This document shows positions 5,223 to 42,245 of a stretch of 64,000 bases of DNA, in pieces; positions within the stretch are counted from its first letter, which is position 1; the number at the start of each line of letters is the position of its first letter. Below the pieces are notes generated by a model, which saw only the letters and a program-made list of their open reading frames with translations, searched no databases and was not told the origin of the DNA. Location: the NCBI GenBank assembly GCA_015665275.1, contig JADFAL010000008.1, positions 32,094-96,093 of the forward strand, read 5' to 3'. The position numbers and the translations under genes were made by a program. Origin of the DNA: Flavobacteriales bacterium (GTDB taxonomy: Bacteria; Bacteroidota; Bacteroidia; Flavobacteriales_D; Crocinitomicaceae).

Positions 5223-7010
5223 ATGAGACGATTGATGAACCGAAAAGCTACGGTTATTGCGGGAATGTTTTTAAGCCTTGGATTGTTATCTGCTGGCTAT
5301 GCATCTACCAAATTAGAAGGCATGAAAGCTGTAAATACTCCACCAAGATCTGGTGGTCTAGCAGCAGTAGCTATTCAAGATAGAACAGGCAGTCCGATTT
5401 CCAGTGGTTTGTGTTCAGCTTGCCATGCGGGCGGAAGTTTTGGAACAACCTTTCAAATTACCGTTCGAGATCTTGGAAATAACATTGTCACTTCCTACAT
5501 CCCAGGTGCACAGTACACTGTAGAATACATTGTTGCAGGAACAACCGGAACCCCAAGTGGATTTGGGATGCAATCTGCAATACTCGATGCATCCAACAGT
5601 AATGCAGGGAGTTTTGGTTCTGTAAGTACTACTAGCACGCAAGTTTCAACTATTGGAGGCATTCAATTTGTAGAGCAACAAGGCGCCAGCTCCTCCGGCC
5701 TTTTCATCGTTGATTGGACCGCTCCTTCCTCGGGTACGGGTAGCGTTACTGTATACGGAAACGGTATTGCGATTAATGGCAATGGGGGAACAAGTGGCGA
5801 TGCGGGATCACCAGCGGTCAATCTAAGTTTGACTGAAGATGTGCCCACTGCGATCAATTTTCCAGGGAATCCATATTGTTCTGACGCAACAAATCCAACG
5901 CCCTCGGTAGTAGGAGAGCAAGGAGGAACTTTTAGTGCTCCTCTTGGCTTAGACATCAATACTGCATCAGGTTTGGTCAATATCGCAGGGTCAACTCCGG
6001 GAACATATACCGTAACGTATTCCGGTGCTACAGAAACCGCGACATTTGATGTTACCATCAATGAAACATACAACACAACTGATGCCGTTTCTATTTGCCC
6101 CAATGAGAGCTATCAATTCGGTAGTCAAACGTTGACGGCATCCAACGTAGGATTGAATACACAAGTATTCCAAGCTTCGAATGGTTGTGATTCAACGGTA
6201 GATCTTACACTTTCTGTTTTGCCCTCACCGGTTACTCAGCTTTCTCAGTCTATTTGTTCCAACGAGACAATTCAATTCAACGGTCAAACACTGGACGCCT
6301 CGAATGCCGGTTTGAATACTTTCACAACTTCAGGTTCTAACGGTTGCGATTCCACATTAGAGTTGACTTTAAACGTTTTGTCTTTAGATACGGTTCAGGT
6401 TTCCGAAACCATTTGTCAGGGTGCAACATTCGATTTCAATGGACAAATTTTAGACGAATCCAATGTGGGATTGAATACAGCGACACTTTCCAATGTGAAC
6501 GGTTGCGATTCTATCGTGGAACTAACGTTAAGTGTCACACAAATAGACACAACTATAACTCCGAATCTTTTCTCACTAATATCGAACGAAACCAGTGCCA
6601 ATGCCAGCTTCGTATGGCTTGACTGCGAAGACAACCTAGCTATTGTTCCAAACGAAAACACTGAAACATTAAACGTTGTCGATTTCGGATCGTGGGCAGC
6701 AGTGATCACTTTAGATGGATGTGTAGACACTACGGAATGTGAAATGCCATTCTATATGGGCATCGACGAGAACAATACTTCTGCGATACAAGTATATCCT
6801 AGCCCCGCCGAAAATACTCTTTACGTGAAAAACCTATCGGATTTGACCGAAGTGGACTTCCTTCAGATTGTAAATCTCTCTGGACAACAAGTATGGTCAA
6901 ACACATCACTAACAGACGAAATAAACGTTAGTGCTCTTCCACCAGGGACCTACTTCCTGAAGGTAAGACATGCTAAAGGTGAAGACATTGTTCGTTTCAT
7001 AAAGCGATAA
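5223..7010 (+). CDS. T9SS type A sorting domain protein with N-terminal CxxCH (choice-of-anchor-like) region and three internal repeats
   Basis: SGLCSACHAGG motif; three ICxxxxxxFxGQxLxxSNxGLNT...NGCDSxxxLTLxV repeats; C-terminal VYPSPAENTLYV...GTYFLKV tail. Confidence 0.8.
   Translation: MRRLMNRKATVIAGMFLSLGLLSAGYASTKLEGMKAVNTPPRSGGLAAVAIQDRTGSPISSGLCSACHAGGSFGTTFQITVRDLGNNIVTSYIPGAQYTVEYIVAGTTGTPSGFGMQSAILDASNSNAGSFGSVSTTSTQVSTIGGIQFVEQQGASSSGLFIVDWTAPSSGTGSVTVYGNGIAINGNGGTSGDAGSPAVNLSLTEDVPTAINFPGNPYCSDATNPTPSVVGEQGGTFSAPLGLDINTASGLVNIAGSTPGTYTVTYSGATETATFDVTINETYNTTDAVSICPNESYQFGSQTLTASNVGLNTQVFQASNGCDSTVDLTLSVLPSPVTQLSQSICSNETIQFNGQTLDASNAGLNTFTTSGSNGCDSTLELTLNVLSLDTVQVSETICQGATFDFNGQILDESNVGLNTATLSNVNGCDSIVELTLSVTQIDTTITPNLFSLISNETSANASFVWLDCEDNLAIVPNENTETLNVVDFGSWAAVITLDGCVDTTECEMPFYMGIDENNTSAIQVYPSPAENTLYVKNLSDLTEVDFLQIVNLSGQQVWSNTSLTDEINVSALPPGTYFLKVRHAKGEDIVRFIKR
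6085..6540 (+). repeat. Three tandem ~150-nt protein-coding repeats
   Basis: Translated repeats ICPNESYQFGSQTLTASNVGLNT / ICSNETIQFNGQTLDASNAGLNT / ICQGATFDFNGQILDESNVGLNT. Confidence 0.75.
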
Positions 7011-7040
7011 TATCGAGTTAAAAAGCAAACCGAATTTAGA

Positions 7041-7083
7041 ATAAGAAAGGGCGTTAAGATTTGTCGAAATGTCCTTTCTTTTA
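7041..7083. terminator. Possible bidirectional terminator between convergent genes
   Basis: AAGAAAGG...CCTTTCTTTT inverted arms between stop codons at 7010 (+) and 7081 (-). Confidence 0.45.
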
Positions 7084-8628
7084 ATCAACTCGCTTCAAAT
7101 CCAAATCATGGAAATCAAAGCTGAAATCAATGTTGGGTGAAATACCTTTCATTTTGATTGCGATAGCCTTCCCATTTTCATCTAGCGTAAAGGAGGCAAA
7201 GGCATCACAATTCATTTCGCGATAATCCCATTTAATGGCGAAGGTATTTGCTTGATAGAAGAACATTTCGCCTGTGAGTCTTGGAGATCTTTTAGAAGAA
7301 AACAAAAGTTTACCATCCTTCTCTTCGATGATACAATCTCCAAACCAATCATCGCGGTAGGTTCCTGTATAATCATCTAGTTTCAAATGATCAGTTTTGG
7401 CATTTTCACATGTTTTCCAAACGGCATCTACTACTCCATTTGCTTCTCCTGTTGACCGTATCAAATACCCGGAAATACGCCCCATCCAATCAGCATCCGG
7501 AGCGCCCAGATAAGCATCCATAATTTCATTCATCACAGAAATAAAAGCGTAGCTGCCAGGAGAAGTGTTGGTGAGAACAACAATTCCTGCATTCAACTCT
7601 GGAATTAAAACCGTATGCGATAGCATGCCCGGCATTCCTCCCGTATGACTCACAATTGAATAACCGTTTTTATCTTCCAAGTCCCATCCCAATCCATATG
7701 CGTTGTAGTGCGTATTGTAAGGACCTTGTCCGACCGCAGAAGACCAAATCATCGTTTGCATTTCCCACATTTTGGCGTGTGTATTGGACTGCAATAAAGT
7801 ATCTCCATCGAACACTCCTCCATTCAGTTGGGTAATCATCCAATTGGATAAATCCTCTGCACTTGCATAAATTCCACCAGCTGCTCCGAAAACCTTGTTT
7901 GGGTCTAAATATTCGTTGATTTGTTCCAACTCACCATTTTCAGTAGAATGCGGCATCGCAATATTCTTTGTTGATTTTAAATTTTCACGATACGCCGCAG
8001 ATCGTTTCATACCGATGCGTTCCATGATTTCGTCCTCCACAAATTGATCCCAAGGCTTACCGCTTACGCGGTTAATTACTTCACCCGCAACGATGTACAA
8101 AAGGTTGTCATAATCGTATTTCGTTCTGAATTCAGATACAGGTTCTTGATGTTGAAAGCTACTGAGGATATCATCAATGGTAAAATCCGATCCATCGGGA
8201 ATAAACATTAAATCTCCAGCACCCAATCCCAAACCGCTTCGGTGTGTCACCAAATCTACAATGGTGAAGTGCTCCGTTACGTATGAATCGTACATTCGGA
8301 ACTCAGGTATGATGTCCACGACTTTATCGCTCCAGCGCAACTTTCCCTGATCCACTAACATCCCCAACGACGCTGTGGTAAAGGCTTTACTGTTTGAGGC
8401 GATACTAAAAAGTGTATTCTTATCCACCTTTGTTCCAGCATCCAATGACGCGATTCCATATCCTTTTGAGTGAATGACTTTACCATCCTGAACAACGGCC
8501 ACAGCGACACCGGCCTGCTCGACAGATTTCAAAGAAGCGTTTACTACACTGTCAATATATTCCGGAGTTACTTGACCAAAAGAAACTGATAGACAAAATG
8601 TTAAAAGAAAGGCTGCAACTATTTTCAT
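7081..8628 (-). CDS. Serine hydrolase, beta-lactamase class C-like, secreted
   Basis: SIASNSKAFT (SxxK), YDYDN (YxN-like) and HTGG motifs; likely start is MKIVAAFLLTF at 8628. Confidence 0.88.
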   Translation of the reverse strand: MKIVAAFLLTFCLSVSFGQVTPEYIDSVVNASLKSVEQAGVAVAVVQDGKVIHSKGYGIASLDAGTKVDKNTLFSIASNSKAFTTASLGMLVDQGKLRWSDKVVDIIPEFRMYDSYVTEHFTIVDLVTHRSGLGLGAGDLMFIPDGSDFTIDDILSSFQHQEPVSEFRTKYDYDNLLYIVAGEVINRVSGKPWDQFVEDEIMERIGMKRSAAYRENLKSTKNIAMPHSTENGELEQINEYLDPNKVFGAAGGIYASAEDLSNWMITQLNGGVFDGDTLLQSNTHAKMWEMQTMIWSSAVGQGPYNTHYNAYGLGWDLEDKNGYSIVSHTGGMPGMLSHTVLIPELNAGIVVLTNTSPGSYAFISVMNEIMDAYLGAPDADWMGRISGYLIRSTGEANGVVDAVWKTCENAKTDHLKLDDYTGTYRDDWFGDCIIEEKDGKLLFSSKRSPRLTGEMFFYQANTFAIKWDYREMNCDAFASFTLDENGKAIAIKMKGISPNIDFSFDFHDLDLKRVD

Positions 8629-8716
8629 GGATGATGAATTTACACGAAAGTACAAATCAAATTGAACGTTACCATTTTTAAATTGTACATTATATCAGCA
8701 AACAACACGCTACATC

Positions 8717-9454
8717 ATGTCAAAAAAACATCAAATCTCAATCCCCGATCCGTGTCAGGAAGATTGGAACGAAATGCAAGCCACTGGCCTTGGTCGTTAT
8801 TGTAACAGCTGTGAACAAAATATTCAGGATTATAGCAAATTGAGCGATAATGAACTCGTTCAATTATTAATGTCCGACAAACCGCATTGCGGAAATTTCG
8901 ATGAAGCCCAATTGGGCCGCGTTTTGCAAATGGATCGTCGAAACTTGCTTCCAACAATGAACTTGAGAGCCGTTGCGCTGGGATTTGGAATTCTTGTAAC
9001 CACAACTTCTTTTGCTTCGAACAAACCGGTAAAAACCAATTCCTTCGACTTGATCGAGGTAGCAAGAGGCACCACTTTATTTACGTATGAGGATCAAAGC
9101 TCTGACGTAGATGAATTGTGTCATTTCATTGTGATGGACACCGAGAGCAATTATTTGTCCGGAGCAAAATTAGAATTACTGGACGACAAAGGACATGTAG
9201 TAGAGGTGATTACAACGGATAAAAACGGAATGGCGAGTTACAATCGTAAAATGATCAATGAAATGCGCATTCGTGAGATTCGGGTAATTCCAAATTCAAC
9301 AAAGTACGAACGTGTTACCATTGCATTTGAAGGAGCGGAAAGAACGGATCATCAAGTAATCCAAGTAGAAGCGAAAGCGCCCAAACCAGCGAAAACGCCT
9401 AAATACAACCGACGACATATGCGTGGAGTAGTAGCCTACGGAAATAAATACTAA
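8717..9454 (+). CDS. Hypothetical protein with N-terminal Cys motif and carboxypeptidase-regulatory-like C-terminal domain
   Basis: CQEDWNEMQATGLGRYCNSCEQNIQDYS..., internal TM, beta-rich C-terminal region. Confidence 0.6.
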   Translation: MSKKHQISIPDPCQEDWNEMQATGLGRYCNSCEQNIQDYSKLSDNELVQLLMSDKPHCGNFDEAQLGRVLQMDRRNLLPTMNLRAVALGFGILVTTTSFASNKPVKTNSFDLIEVARGTTLFTYEDQSSDVDELCHFIVMDTESNYLSGAKLELLDDKGHVVEVITTDKNGMASYNRKMINEMRIREIRVIPNSTKYERVTIAFEGAERTDHQVIQVEAKAPKPAKTPKYNRRHMRGVVAYGNKY

Positions 9455-9498
9455 CGATATATTGATCCATAGACTGGAGTCACTATTCTATCAGAGCT

Positions 9499-10008
9499 TT
9501 AAAGCGAACCTTTAGGAGTGACTTTGTATTTCACTGGCCCGTCAATTTTGTCTGTAATTAAAAAGATGTACGGCTGCGTTAAAACGGTAATTGCTGCTCC
9601 TTGAGGCGATGATAACGACAGGTGCAATATATAGGATTTAGCCCCATCTGCTTGTATCTGCATTAAACTCTCGGCAGTTAATGAATATCCTCCAGTAGAA
9701 CGAACAGGTTGAAAATACGCCACGATAGATTGTTTGCCGAAGTCTACATCACTCTCATCTAGATCATCCAAAGCACTGGTCACGTGATCGACTGAATTCA
9801 TTTTTTTGCAGATCGCATTTAACTCTTTTTGCGAATTACAAACGACAATAGATTCTTCAATTCCCTCGGAACCGCCCCCCATAAGGTCACCGCTTTGAAT
9901 CAACTCAATATCAAACGATTTTGTTCCGTCCTTACCGTCTTTCATAGATTTACACGAAACTAAGATTATGGAGATCAATATCAACGCTAAGAAAGATGCT
10001 TTTTTCAT
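9499..10008 (-). CDS. Hypothetical lipoprotein
   Basis: MKKASFLALILISIILVSCKS lipobox. Confidence 0.65.
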   Translation of the reverse strand: MKKASFLALILISIILVSCKSMKDGKDGTKSFDIELIQSGDLMGGGSEGIEESIVVCNSQKELNAICKKMNSVDHVTSALDDLDESDVDFGKQSIVAYFQPVRSTGGYSLTAESLMQIQADGAKSYILHLSLSSPQGAAITVLTQPYIFLITDKIDGPVKYKVTPKGSL

Positions 10009-39006: not shown

Positions 39007-40233
39007 ATGTTATTCTCCTCAGGAGCTGAATTCTTTCTCGTTGCTTTTTTCCTACTATTTCAGTGGGTCACAAGAAAGTATCTTGCACTTTCAGCACAGC
39101 GAATCGTCCTTTTTGCGGGAAACATACTGATTCTCTCAACCATTATCTCCCTTGCTACACTCGGAATCCATGTGTTTATCTCATTTTTGGTATTTGGAGC
39201 GCTCGCCATCATTGCCAGAAACAGAAACAAACGCGGAACCATTATTGCGACACTTTCTGTTTTAGTCCTGATCGTTTTGTTTTGCTTGCGCAACTATCCC
39301 AAAGCCTTCGGATTTGAATCATTTCAAATGGGCAATTCGCCCGAATTATTAATCGAAAGATTAGGGATTAGTTACATTTTGTTCCGTAATATTCAATCAA
39401 TCGTAGACACATTAAAAGGTCGATTGACGGCAAAAAATCCTATTGATTACATCAACTTCATTCTATTCTTCCCGAACTTCTTGGCCGGTCCAATTGATAA
39501 GTTTTCCAACTTTCAACGTCATTTCACCCGTGCCGAAGGGAAATTGAAAAACGCATTGTTCTGGCCAGGTGTTGGACGAATTGTTATTGGTTTTCTGAAA
39601 AAATATGCGATCATTCCATTGTTCAGTATGTACGCTTTGAGCTACGAACCGTTCTTAGAATTTATGTCGCCACAAGGTGCCATTTTACTCAGTGCAGTTT
39701 GCTATTCAGCCTACATCTTCCTTGATTTTTCTGGATATTCTGATATCGCAATTGGAACGGGATATATCATGGGGATTAAAACGCCTGAGAATTTCGACAG
39801 CCCATATTTAACTACGAATATTGCCGCATTTTGGCGCAAATGGCACATGACTTTTTCGGAGTTTTTGCGCGACCTTATTTTCAAACCCATTGTAAAGCTC
39901 GTTAACAAAACTGGACTTAAACCGTTTCGAAATACCGTTTCCATTATCGGATATTTCCTAACGTTTTTCATTTGCGGAATATGGCATGGAGATACCGTAA
40001 ACTTCGTTTATTGGGGACTTTGGCACGCATTGGGACTGGCTGTATTCAAAGTATGGAGTTCTACCGGAACCTTCGAACGATTACACAATTCACAAAGCTC
40101 TGTAAAACAAGGCTTAATCACCCTCTCTGGTATCGCGCTTACTTTTTCATTTGTTACCGTCGGATGGCTTTTCTTCCATTATAAAGGTGAGGATTTGACA
40201 ATTGTTTTTGAAACATTGCTTGGCATTACATGA
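39007..40233 (+). CDS. MBOAT family O-acyltransferase, DltB-like
   Basis: FILFFPNFLAGPIDKFSNFQRHF, SGYSDIAIGTGYIMGIKTPENFDSPYLTTNIAAFWRKWHMT, GIWHGDTVNFVYWGLWHALGL. Confidence 0.9.
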   Translation: MLFSSGAEFFLVAFFLLFQWVTRKYLALSAQRIVLFAGNILILSTIISLATLGIHVFISFLVFGALAIIARNRNKRGTIIATLSVLVLIVLFCLRNYPKAFGFESFQMGNSPELLIERLGISYILFRNIQSIVDTLKGRLTAKNPIDYINFILFFPNFLAGPIDKFSNFQRHFTRAEGKLKNALFWPGVGRIVIGFLKKYAIIPLFSMYALSYEPFLEFMSPQGAILLSAVCYSAYIFLDFSGYSDIAIGTGYIMGIKTPENFDSPYLTTNIAAFWRKWHMTFSEFLRDLIFKPIVKLVNKTGLKPFRNTVSIIGYFLTFFICGIWHGDTVNFVYWGLWHALGLAVFKVWSSTGTFERLHNSQSSVKQGLITLSGIALTFSFVTVGWLFFHYKGEDLTIVFETLLGIT

Positions 40234-41393
40234 AGCTAGAAAAGTACATATCGAGATTCTACCGATTTTCTACTTTGAAGGAAGTCGGGAAAACAGGCAC
40301 TTTAGCCCTATCCATTGTTGCCTTGTTTGGACTATTCGCAATACTTTTTCTCCCATCAACAACGGACATTAAGGAATTTTCTAAAGTTTCACCAGGCGGA
40401 CTACTCACTTTGGACGCTACGCATGTTAAAAACGACGATGCGTACTTCCATGAGTTCATGAAGCGCATTAAAAAGAATGACGATGTACTGGTATTAGGAA
40501 CCTCTGAATCCGGATATTTGGATGGATATAATTACTGGGAACTCTTAAATGCGGACTCAACACTGGAAGAACAATTCTCTGTACTATATGGTGCCGGAAG
40601 ATTTTGCGAAAGGTATATCCCTAGCATGGTCAACAACCCTGAAATCTGGAAGGATCAAAAGCTTTTGGTAATCATAAATCCGGTGTACTGGCGTGAAGGG
40701 CTCTCTCGATTCAGTTTAGAATACCACGAACGCTACATGAACGAAGGAGAAGTTCGCAAGGCCCGAAGTAAATCGGATAGAAAGAATGATTTTGACCTCC
40801 TATTTGGAGGTAGCGGTGTTGGATTTATGAAGGGCCAAATGAATGTCGCCAATAACTGGATCGATCATAATGTTCACGAACTTTACTACGGAAGACTGCA
40901 CCATTTCTTTGGGCTGGAAGAAGAAAACATTGCGCATTTCACAGGTCACAGCCCAAGAACTGGATTACAAGCGCGTACTACTCCGGAACTTTTGACAGTA
41001 GCAAAATCAGAAGTACTGGAAGATTTCAACTGCACACAAGAGTTTATCAATACTGGAGATTACCTAATGACAGAACTTTTCTTGGATTCAGAGTATCGCA
41101 ATACAGCACTGGACTACTTCCTTGAACTATGTCAGCAATTGAACGTCAAACCCACTTTTGTAATCGGGCCTTACAATAAGATTCTAACTGAAAAGAATAA
41201 ACAGCAAGCTATTGCCGATCAGTACGCTCAACTACATAAAGATCTGAAGTCGACATTTGACGAAGCTGGGTTCCCATATATAGATGCATCTGAAATTTCG
41301 GATGTCCCGCATTCGTTCATCGACAAGCAGCACCATTCGAAATACGGAGGTTACTTATTGTATAAAACTATAAAGTCAGAGCTCTATGAATAA
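40230..41393 (+). CDS. DltD-like membrane-anchored SGNH-type protein
   Basis: N-terminal TM, VLVLGTSESG candidate nucleophile motif, IDKQHHSKYGGYLLY C-terminal D-x-x-H; 4-nt ATGA overlap with MBOAT gene. Confidence 0.75.
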   Translation: MKLEKYISRFYRFSTLKEVGKTGTLALSIVALFGLFAILFLPSTTDIKEFSKVSPGGLLTLDATHVKNDDAYFHEFMKRIKKNDDVLVLGTSESGYLDGYNYWELLNADSTLEEQFSVLYGAGRFCERYIPSMVNNPEIWKDQKLLVIINPVYWREGLSRFSLEYHERYMNEGEVRKARSKSDRKNDFDLLFGGSGVGFMKGQMNVANNWIDHNVHELYYGRLHHFFGLEEENIAHFTGHSPRTGLQARTTPELLTVAKSEVLEDFNCTQEFINTGDYLMTELFLDSEYRNTALDYFLELCQQLNVKPTFVIGPYNKILTEKNKQQAIADQYAQLHKDLKSTFDEAGFPYIDASEISDVPHSFIDKQHHSKYGGYLLYKTIKSELYE

Positions 41394-41499
41394 GTGGATG
41401 ATTCGTATATCGTTTGGGCTTGTTATTGCAGCCGTAATTCTGTTCATGATTATGAATAAGGAAACAGAACAGATTTCCTTTATGTACGCTGATTTTTAA
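41386..41499 (+). CDS. DltX-like microprotein (37 aa), absent from ORF track
   Basis: MNKWMIRISFGLVIAAVILFMIMNKETEQISFMYADF*: one TM, ends in FxYxxF; ATG overlaps the 3' end of the DltD-like gene by 8 nt. Confidence 0.8.
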   Translation: MNKWMIRISFGLVIAAVILFMIMNKETEQISFMYADF

Positions 41500-41699: not shown

Positions 41700-42245
41700 A
41701 TGTACGCAATTGTAGAGATAGCAGGGCAGCAGTTCAAAGTGCAAAAAGACCAGAAGATCTTTGTTCACCGTTTGGATGCTCAAGAAGGAAAAAAAGTCGA
41801 TTTCGACAAAGTACTCCTTATTGAGGACAAAGGGAAAGTGACTCTTGGCGCCCCGGCTATAAAAGGTGCAGCAGTTTCAGCGAAAGTTGAAGAGCACGTA
41901 AAAGGTGATAAAGTAATCGTTTTCCGCAAGAAGCGCAGAAAAGGATACCGTAAAAAGAACGGTCACCGTCAGAGTTTCACTTCATTGACGATAACAGATA
42001 TCGTTGCAAGTGGAGCGAAAGTTGCGAAGCCAGCTGCTGAGAAGAAAGAAACGCCTAAAACAGAGGCTGCTCCGAAAGCAGAAGCACCGAAAAAAGAAGC
42101 GGCACCAAAAGCTGCTCCGAAAGCGGAAGCTGGAAATGATTTGAGCAAAATGACAGTTGCTGAATTGAAAGACATGGCTAAAGCAAAAGGAATCGAAGGA
42201 ATTTCTTCAATGAAGAAAGCCGATTTGATTGCTGCTTTAAGCTAA
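41700..42245 (+). CDS. rplU: 50S ribosomal protein bL21 with long C-terminal extension
   Basis: [43 protein letters not shown]; Ala/Lys/Pro linker and SAP/Rho-N-like tail. Confidence 0.95.

Follow-up and report, generated by a model that had tools for sequence, protein, structure and literature searches.

A DltX-like microprotein encoded with an MBOAT and a DltD-like gene in Bacteroidota suggests a ligase-independent acyl relay

The window analyzed here (a stretch of 64,000 nucleotides of contig JADFAL010000008.1 from a Flavobacteriales bacterium) contains a module of three genes in the order B-D-X, namely those of an MBOAT protein, a DltD-like protein and a DltX-like microprotein (Table 1). 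The module probably acts as a ligase-independent, self-contained acyl relay of DltB-DltX-DltD type across the inner membrane, its chemistry being deduced from the biochemistry of PatA and DltX. An acyl transfer of this type was the essence of the original prediction, and it is supported by the conservation of the genes, the charge pattern of the microprotein and the genome-wide absence of DltA and DltC. The predicted gene layout is present as well: the frames of the MBOAT and the DltD-like protein overlap by 4 nt, and the frame of the microprotein overlaps the DltD-like gene by 8 nt and stops at FMYADF. The gene located 3' of the module (window positions 41700-42245) resembles that of ribosomal protein L21, extended by a long tail rich in lysine and alanine; an L21-like tailed gene follows the module in close relatives too.

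Table 1. Positions of the module genes and of their predicted functional residues in the window, and of the operon DltB genes with the W-N-G sequence in other loci
Feature	Coordinates	Strand	Remarks
MBOAT gene	39007..40233	+	408 aa; DltB-like; without fused C-terminal acyl-shuttle motif
DltD-like SGNH acyltransferase gene	40230..41393	+	387 aa; periplasmic domain preceded by an N-terminal TM helix
DltX-like microprotein gene	41386..41499	+	37 aa; one TM helix, predicted N-in/C-out; ends FMYADF
MBOAT His280 (= DltB His289)	39844..39846	+	alignment to 6bug; invariant in all MBOATs compared
MBOAT His327 (= catalytic DltB His336, IWHG)	39985..39987	+	alignment to 6bug
DltD-like Ser92 of GTSE, predicted acyl-accepting nucleophile	40503..40505	+	invariant in 15 sequences
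DltD-like Asp365-x-Gln-His368, rest of triad	41322..41333	+	all 15 sequences have Asp365, Gln367 and His368
Microprotein Tyr34, predicted acyl-carrying tyrosine	41485..41487	+	invariant in all microproteins found
Operon DltB genes with W-N-G	L115 4350-5486, L116 3686-4888, L117 4651-5814, L129-L134

Conservation and topology of the microprotein

An ORF of the microprotein type accompanies the module in 23/23 Bacteroidota genomes in which the module was found by the DltD-like profile (the window genome included). These ORFs encode 36-43 aa with a single TM helix, lie downstream of and overlap the preceding gene and end in x-x-Y-x-x-F; some of them were missed at first due to C or T as the first motif residue or to reading of the ORF in a longer frame. 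A 37-aa ORF occupies the equivalent place both in same-genus relatives (MBOAT identity 67-90%) and in an order-level relative with 41% MBOAT identity, and it ends in FMYADF or YIYANF. Retention of the ORF and its C-terminal motif beside orthologous MBOAT/DltD pairs, as the original prediction would have it, extends to ~40% MBOAT and 26-33% DltD identity. The predicted FxYxxF ending stands in its main part. Met1, Ile30, Tyr34 and Phe37 are invariant in the alignment of 15 peptides, but the first position of the motif is occupied by F, Y, C or T and is not strictly F.

The ORF is short and scores above cut-off in no Pfam or NCBIfam family, as would suit a chance or non-coding frame. This explanation is hardly credible in view of the conservation in every genome with the module and of two further results, by which it was rejected. 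Firstly, the codons of the microprotein in the window and in genome G025 differ with pS=0.69 and pN=0.06 (pN is far below pS), the changes at codon positions 1/2/3 being 3/2/14, and the sequence similarity stops at the stop codon of the microprotein. This comparison shows strong purifying selection on close microprotein pairs. Secondly, the window and 19 related loci contain 1,465 ORFs of 30-60 aa, of which only 16 have the ending [FYCT]xYxxF; each of the 16 is the microprotein adjoining the DltD-like gene, which leaves zero background matches. Judged by its sequence, the 37-aa frame represents a conserved gene, and its product a conserved family for which no family model exists.

The charge flanking the TM helix is +1 to +4 at the N-side and -1 to -3 at the C-side in 23/23 peptides, in agreement with the earlier assignment of one TM helix with the N-terminus inside. 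Since the N-side is positive and the C-side negative, the pattern is consistent with a periplasmic C-terminus, the topology being judged by charge alone. The Pfam DltX model (PF12459) gives no match to the microprotein at E up to 10. Profile-profile comparison of the microprotein with DltX gives E=1e-5 and a probability of 82% with the motifs in register. The microprotein combines the features of a DltX-type shuttle peptide: a single TM helix, predicted N-in/C-out orientation (by charge), the C-terminal xxYxxF and neighboring genes for an SGNH protein and for an MBOAT that lacks the motif.

The MBOAT and DltD-like proteins

The identities of both partner proteins were assigned correctly in the original prediction, as both pass the Pfam cut-offs and their predicted folds are closest to DltB and DltD. 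The MBOAT matches the Pfam family with E=7e-24, and its score with the DltB equivalog TIGR04091 (229 bits, E=9e-68) is under the 375-bit cut-off, i.e. outside this equivalog. Its AF2 model (pLDDT 84) has DltB 6bug as the best PDB match (E=1e-13, TM 0.78). His280 and His327 are invariant in the module MBOATs (14-genome alignment), and His327 is also invariant in Gram-positive DltB and in the fused groups. The hydrophobic residues of DltB involved in DltC docking are not kept in the module MBOAT (M302 is replaced by K/I and M309 by N; K312 is variable). Conservation of these residues is also poor in Bacteroidota DltB proteins whose genes lie next to that of a DltC, so the docking residues do not settle whether the donor is acyl-CoA or acyl-ACP.

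The DltD-like protein scores 26.3 bits with Pfam DltD (PF04914) against a gathering score of 22.7 and 23.5 bits with the NCBIfam DltD equivalog against its 150-bit cut-off. The AF2 model of the protein (pLDDT 79) contains an N-terminal helix of residues 13-40; all its top PDB matches are DltD, with Z 21.5 for DltD structures vs 12.9 for the next fold (VIA-align). Ser92, Asp365 and His368 are invariant in 15 DltD-like sequences. By the gathering score, the fold and the Ser/Asp/His triad the protein belongs to the DltD family.

The window MBOAT ends in ETLLGIT and not in the C-terminal FxYxxF that defines the PatAB type. The fused C-terminal motif is present in 35/35 other compared fused MBOATs and in none of the module clade. 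Three clades are seen in the MBOAT tree: all 35 motif-ending MBOATs together (support 100/99), Gram-positive and Bacteroidota DltB (100/99) and the window group including L096, L104 and L105 (99/98). Because the tree is unrooted, the motif distribution can be explained by one event, either a fusion or a split. The MBOATs of L096 (1969-3861), L104 (2268-4169) and L105 (5021-6466) carry an extra C-terminal domain and are accompanied by the same microprotein; in L096 this domain gives a weak Y_Y_Y match below cut-off. The window genome itself also encodes fused-motif MBOATs ending in FIYYRF, FIYFQF and FVYLQF, and in L059 the module directly adjoins a fused-motif MBOAT (ending in QFIYFQF) and the following 326-aa ORF (7282-8700 and 8651-9631).

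Small single-TM peptides often serve as assembly subunits of complexes. It may therefore be supposed that the microprotein is real but has a structural or regulatory role, with the acyl group passing from the MBOAT to DltD without an acyl-Tyr, and the variable first position of the motif would fit this. We regard such a role as very unlikely: the tyrosine and the terminal phenylalanine are invariant, the end of the peptide is always there, and the same ending is found on the 35 fused MBOATs, the tyrosine being acylated in PatA (PMC12148441).

Absence of DltA and DltC and distribution of the module

The original prediction noticed no DltA or DltC nearby, and this observation holds and extends to the whole genome in the module-only genomes. 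In the window genome (96% complete) the best match of the DltA model TIGR01734 scores 106 bits against the cut-off of 560, and the best DltA match is a protein resembling fatty-acyl-CoA ligase/olefin beta-lactone synthetase. No DltA-grade ligase was detected in module-only genomes, where the best score is 206 bits (for a 1043-aa frame) and the others are <=126, vs 415-422 bits for DltA of the operon genomes in the same search, which served as a positive control. For DltC, a Bacteroidota-specific profile was built because TIGR01688 alone misses the known operon DltC of G1085. This profile gives 109-123 bits in operon genomes vs 21-35 elsewhere; the window genome has no TIGR01688 match and reaches 23.7 bits with the Bacteroidota profile. 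The absence of DltA and DltC is the sole basis on which acyl-CoA or housekeeping acyl-ACP is proposed as the donor.

The operon genomes are those of Bacteroidota with dltC-D-X-B-A operons (G569, G1047, G1085, G1001, G1006, G1020, G859 and G831); in G856 the operon is visible up to the contig end. The order is C-D-X-B-A wherever these nine operons are complete. Their DltX-like peptide has about 47-54 aa and ends in F[VI]YQQF (9/9). Ligase-coupled operons with this peptide score strongly in 6/295 class genomes, and no description of such Bacteroidota operons with a DltX-like peptide was found in the papers searched. Their DltB carries Asn at the position of the catalytic His (W-N-G vs W-H-G) in 9/9 cases, while the other active-site His is kept.

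These operons, as well as the DltB- and DltD-like folds of the module proteins, leave room for true D-alanylation, in which DltA and DltC would come from genes elsewhere, or a housekeeping ligase and ACP would stand in for them, and the cargo would be D-alanine or another amino acid. The ligase and carrier scores given above, along with the nature of the best DltA match in the window genome, make this reading unlikely. Moreover, genome G1047 holds the DltD-like and peptide genes of the module (the MBOAT gene lies beyond the contig edge) in addition to a ligase-coupled operon, which argues against the module being simply a degenerate Dlt system.

In 18 diverse loci, the genes of the microprotein, the MBOAT and the DltD-like protein are the only ones to recur. 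The idea of a conserved donor or acceptor gene hidden in the vicinity was considered and rejected, no neighbor being common beyond close relatives. A scan for the Bacteroidota promoter pattern gave matches at chance level.

Distant loci found by the DltD-like profile belong to Flavobacteriales, Chitinophaga MAGs and rumen Bacteroidales, as well as to more genomes of the order and class. Strong matches occur in 9/399 genomes of the order and 7/395 of the class (the window genome is counted in both), so the module is sporadic. A close MBOAT ortholog is present in 5/34 genomes searched within the genus of the window. The phylum-wide search was made with a narrow 6-sequence profile that matched only the window genome, so the prevalence it gives is a lower bound. 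In G011 the gene is divided between two contigs, and the DltD frame of L066 is apparently broken by a frameshift. A plasmid of Leptolinea (Chloroflexota) encodes a 47-aa ORF ending in WIYQGF (L069 5478-5621) directly upstream of a motif-less MBOAT (5626-7077); no DltD was seen near this MBOAT, which has a long branch and a poorly supported tree position (89/58).

Proposed relay and comparison with known systems

In the proposed relay the MBOAT would draw on a thioester in the cytoplasm as the acyl donor, most likely acyl-CoA (e.g. acetyl-CoA) or housekeeping acyl-ACP, and move the acyl group to Tyr34 at the predicted periplasmic C-terminus of the 37-aa microprotein. Tyr34 would hand the group to Ser92 in the triad (Ser92-Asp365-His368) of the membrane-anchored DltD-like protein, and this protein may then esterify an envelope acceptor in the periplasm. 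We infer the acyl-Tyr and acyl-Ser steps from the biochemistry of PatA and DltX (PMC12148441): PatA auto-acetylates the tyrosine of its own fused C-terminal motif, PatB can use an acetyl-Tyr peptide, and DltX is a separate peptide in a role equal to that of the fused motif of PatA.

Similarly to Gram-positive Dlt (DltXABCD), the module comprises an MBOAT of DltB fold that carries no fused motif, a DltD-fold SGNH partner and a separate single-TM microprotein ending in xxYxxF. In contrast to Gram-positive Dlt, DltA and DltC were not detected with it, its order is B-D-X and its MBOAT falls into a clade of its own. To our knowledge, Bacteroidota lack teichoic acids, and as far as we know a teichoic-acid acceptor of the Gram-positive Dlt type is not to be expected for the module in this phylum; this background is what would make the system teichoic-acid-independent, as the original prediction has it. 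The Bacteroidota dltC-D-X-B-A operons share with the module the phylum, the DltX-like microprotein, DltD and the MBOAT, but they include genes for a DltA-like ligase and for a DltC-like carrier, and their MBOATs (three tested) group with Gram-positive DltB and have W-N-G for W-H-G, which the module MBOATs do not.

With the PatA/PatB and AlgI/AlgX-type pairs the module shares an MBOAT with an SGNH partner, the FxYxxF shuttle motif and possibly the acyl-CoA type of donor. In PatA/PatB-type pairs, however, the MBOAT itself bears the motif, fused to it by way of two extra TM helices, while in the module it is encoded by a separate gene (PMC12148441). We are inclined to regard the module as a third MBOAT-SGNH lineage beside Dlt and PatA/AlgI, in which a detachable DltX-like peptide would serve the transfer of a non-D-alanine acyl group directly from acyl-CoA or acyl-ACP to a Gram-negative envelope acceptor. 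According to the 2025 PatA study (PMC12148441), no MBOAT/SGNH pathway except Dlt has a DltX-like microprotein; the module is a counter-example to this statement. In the module the shuttle peptide occurs apart from both the D-alanine ligase and the carrier, so the two hallmarks of Dlt are not coupled. The module also offers a Gram-negative system whose peptide, MBOAT and SGNH protein are open to mutation or exchange one at a time, and it points to an unrecognized envelope modification in Bacteroidota.

Neither a ligase-free DltB-DltX-DltD module nor a Bacteroidota DltX was found described in the mainly open-access literature searched. In a few Gram-negatives, Dickeya and Pectobacterium, dlt operons have been noted to come with a DltX of similar topology (Kamar et al. 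2017, PMC5541007). The module resembles these in having such a peptide in a Gram-negative; their dlt operons contain the usual gene set, whereas in the module the ligase and the carrier are absent. DltX in Gram-negative dlt operons is thus already known; what is new is a module free of ligase and carrier.
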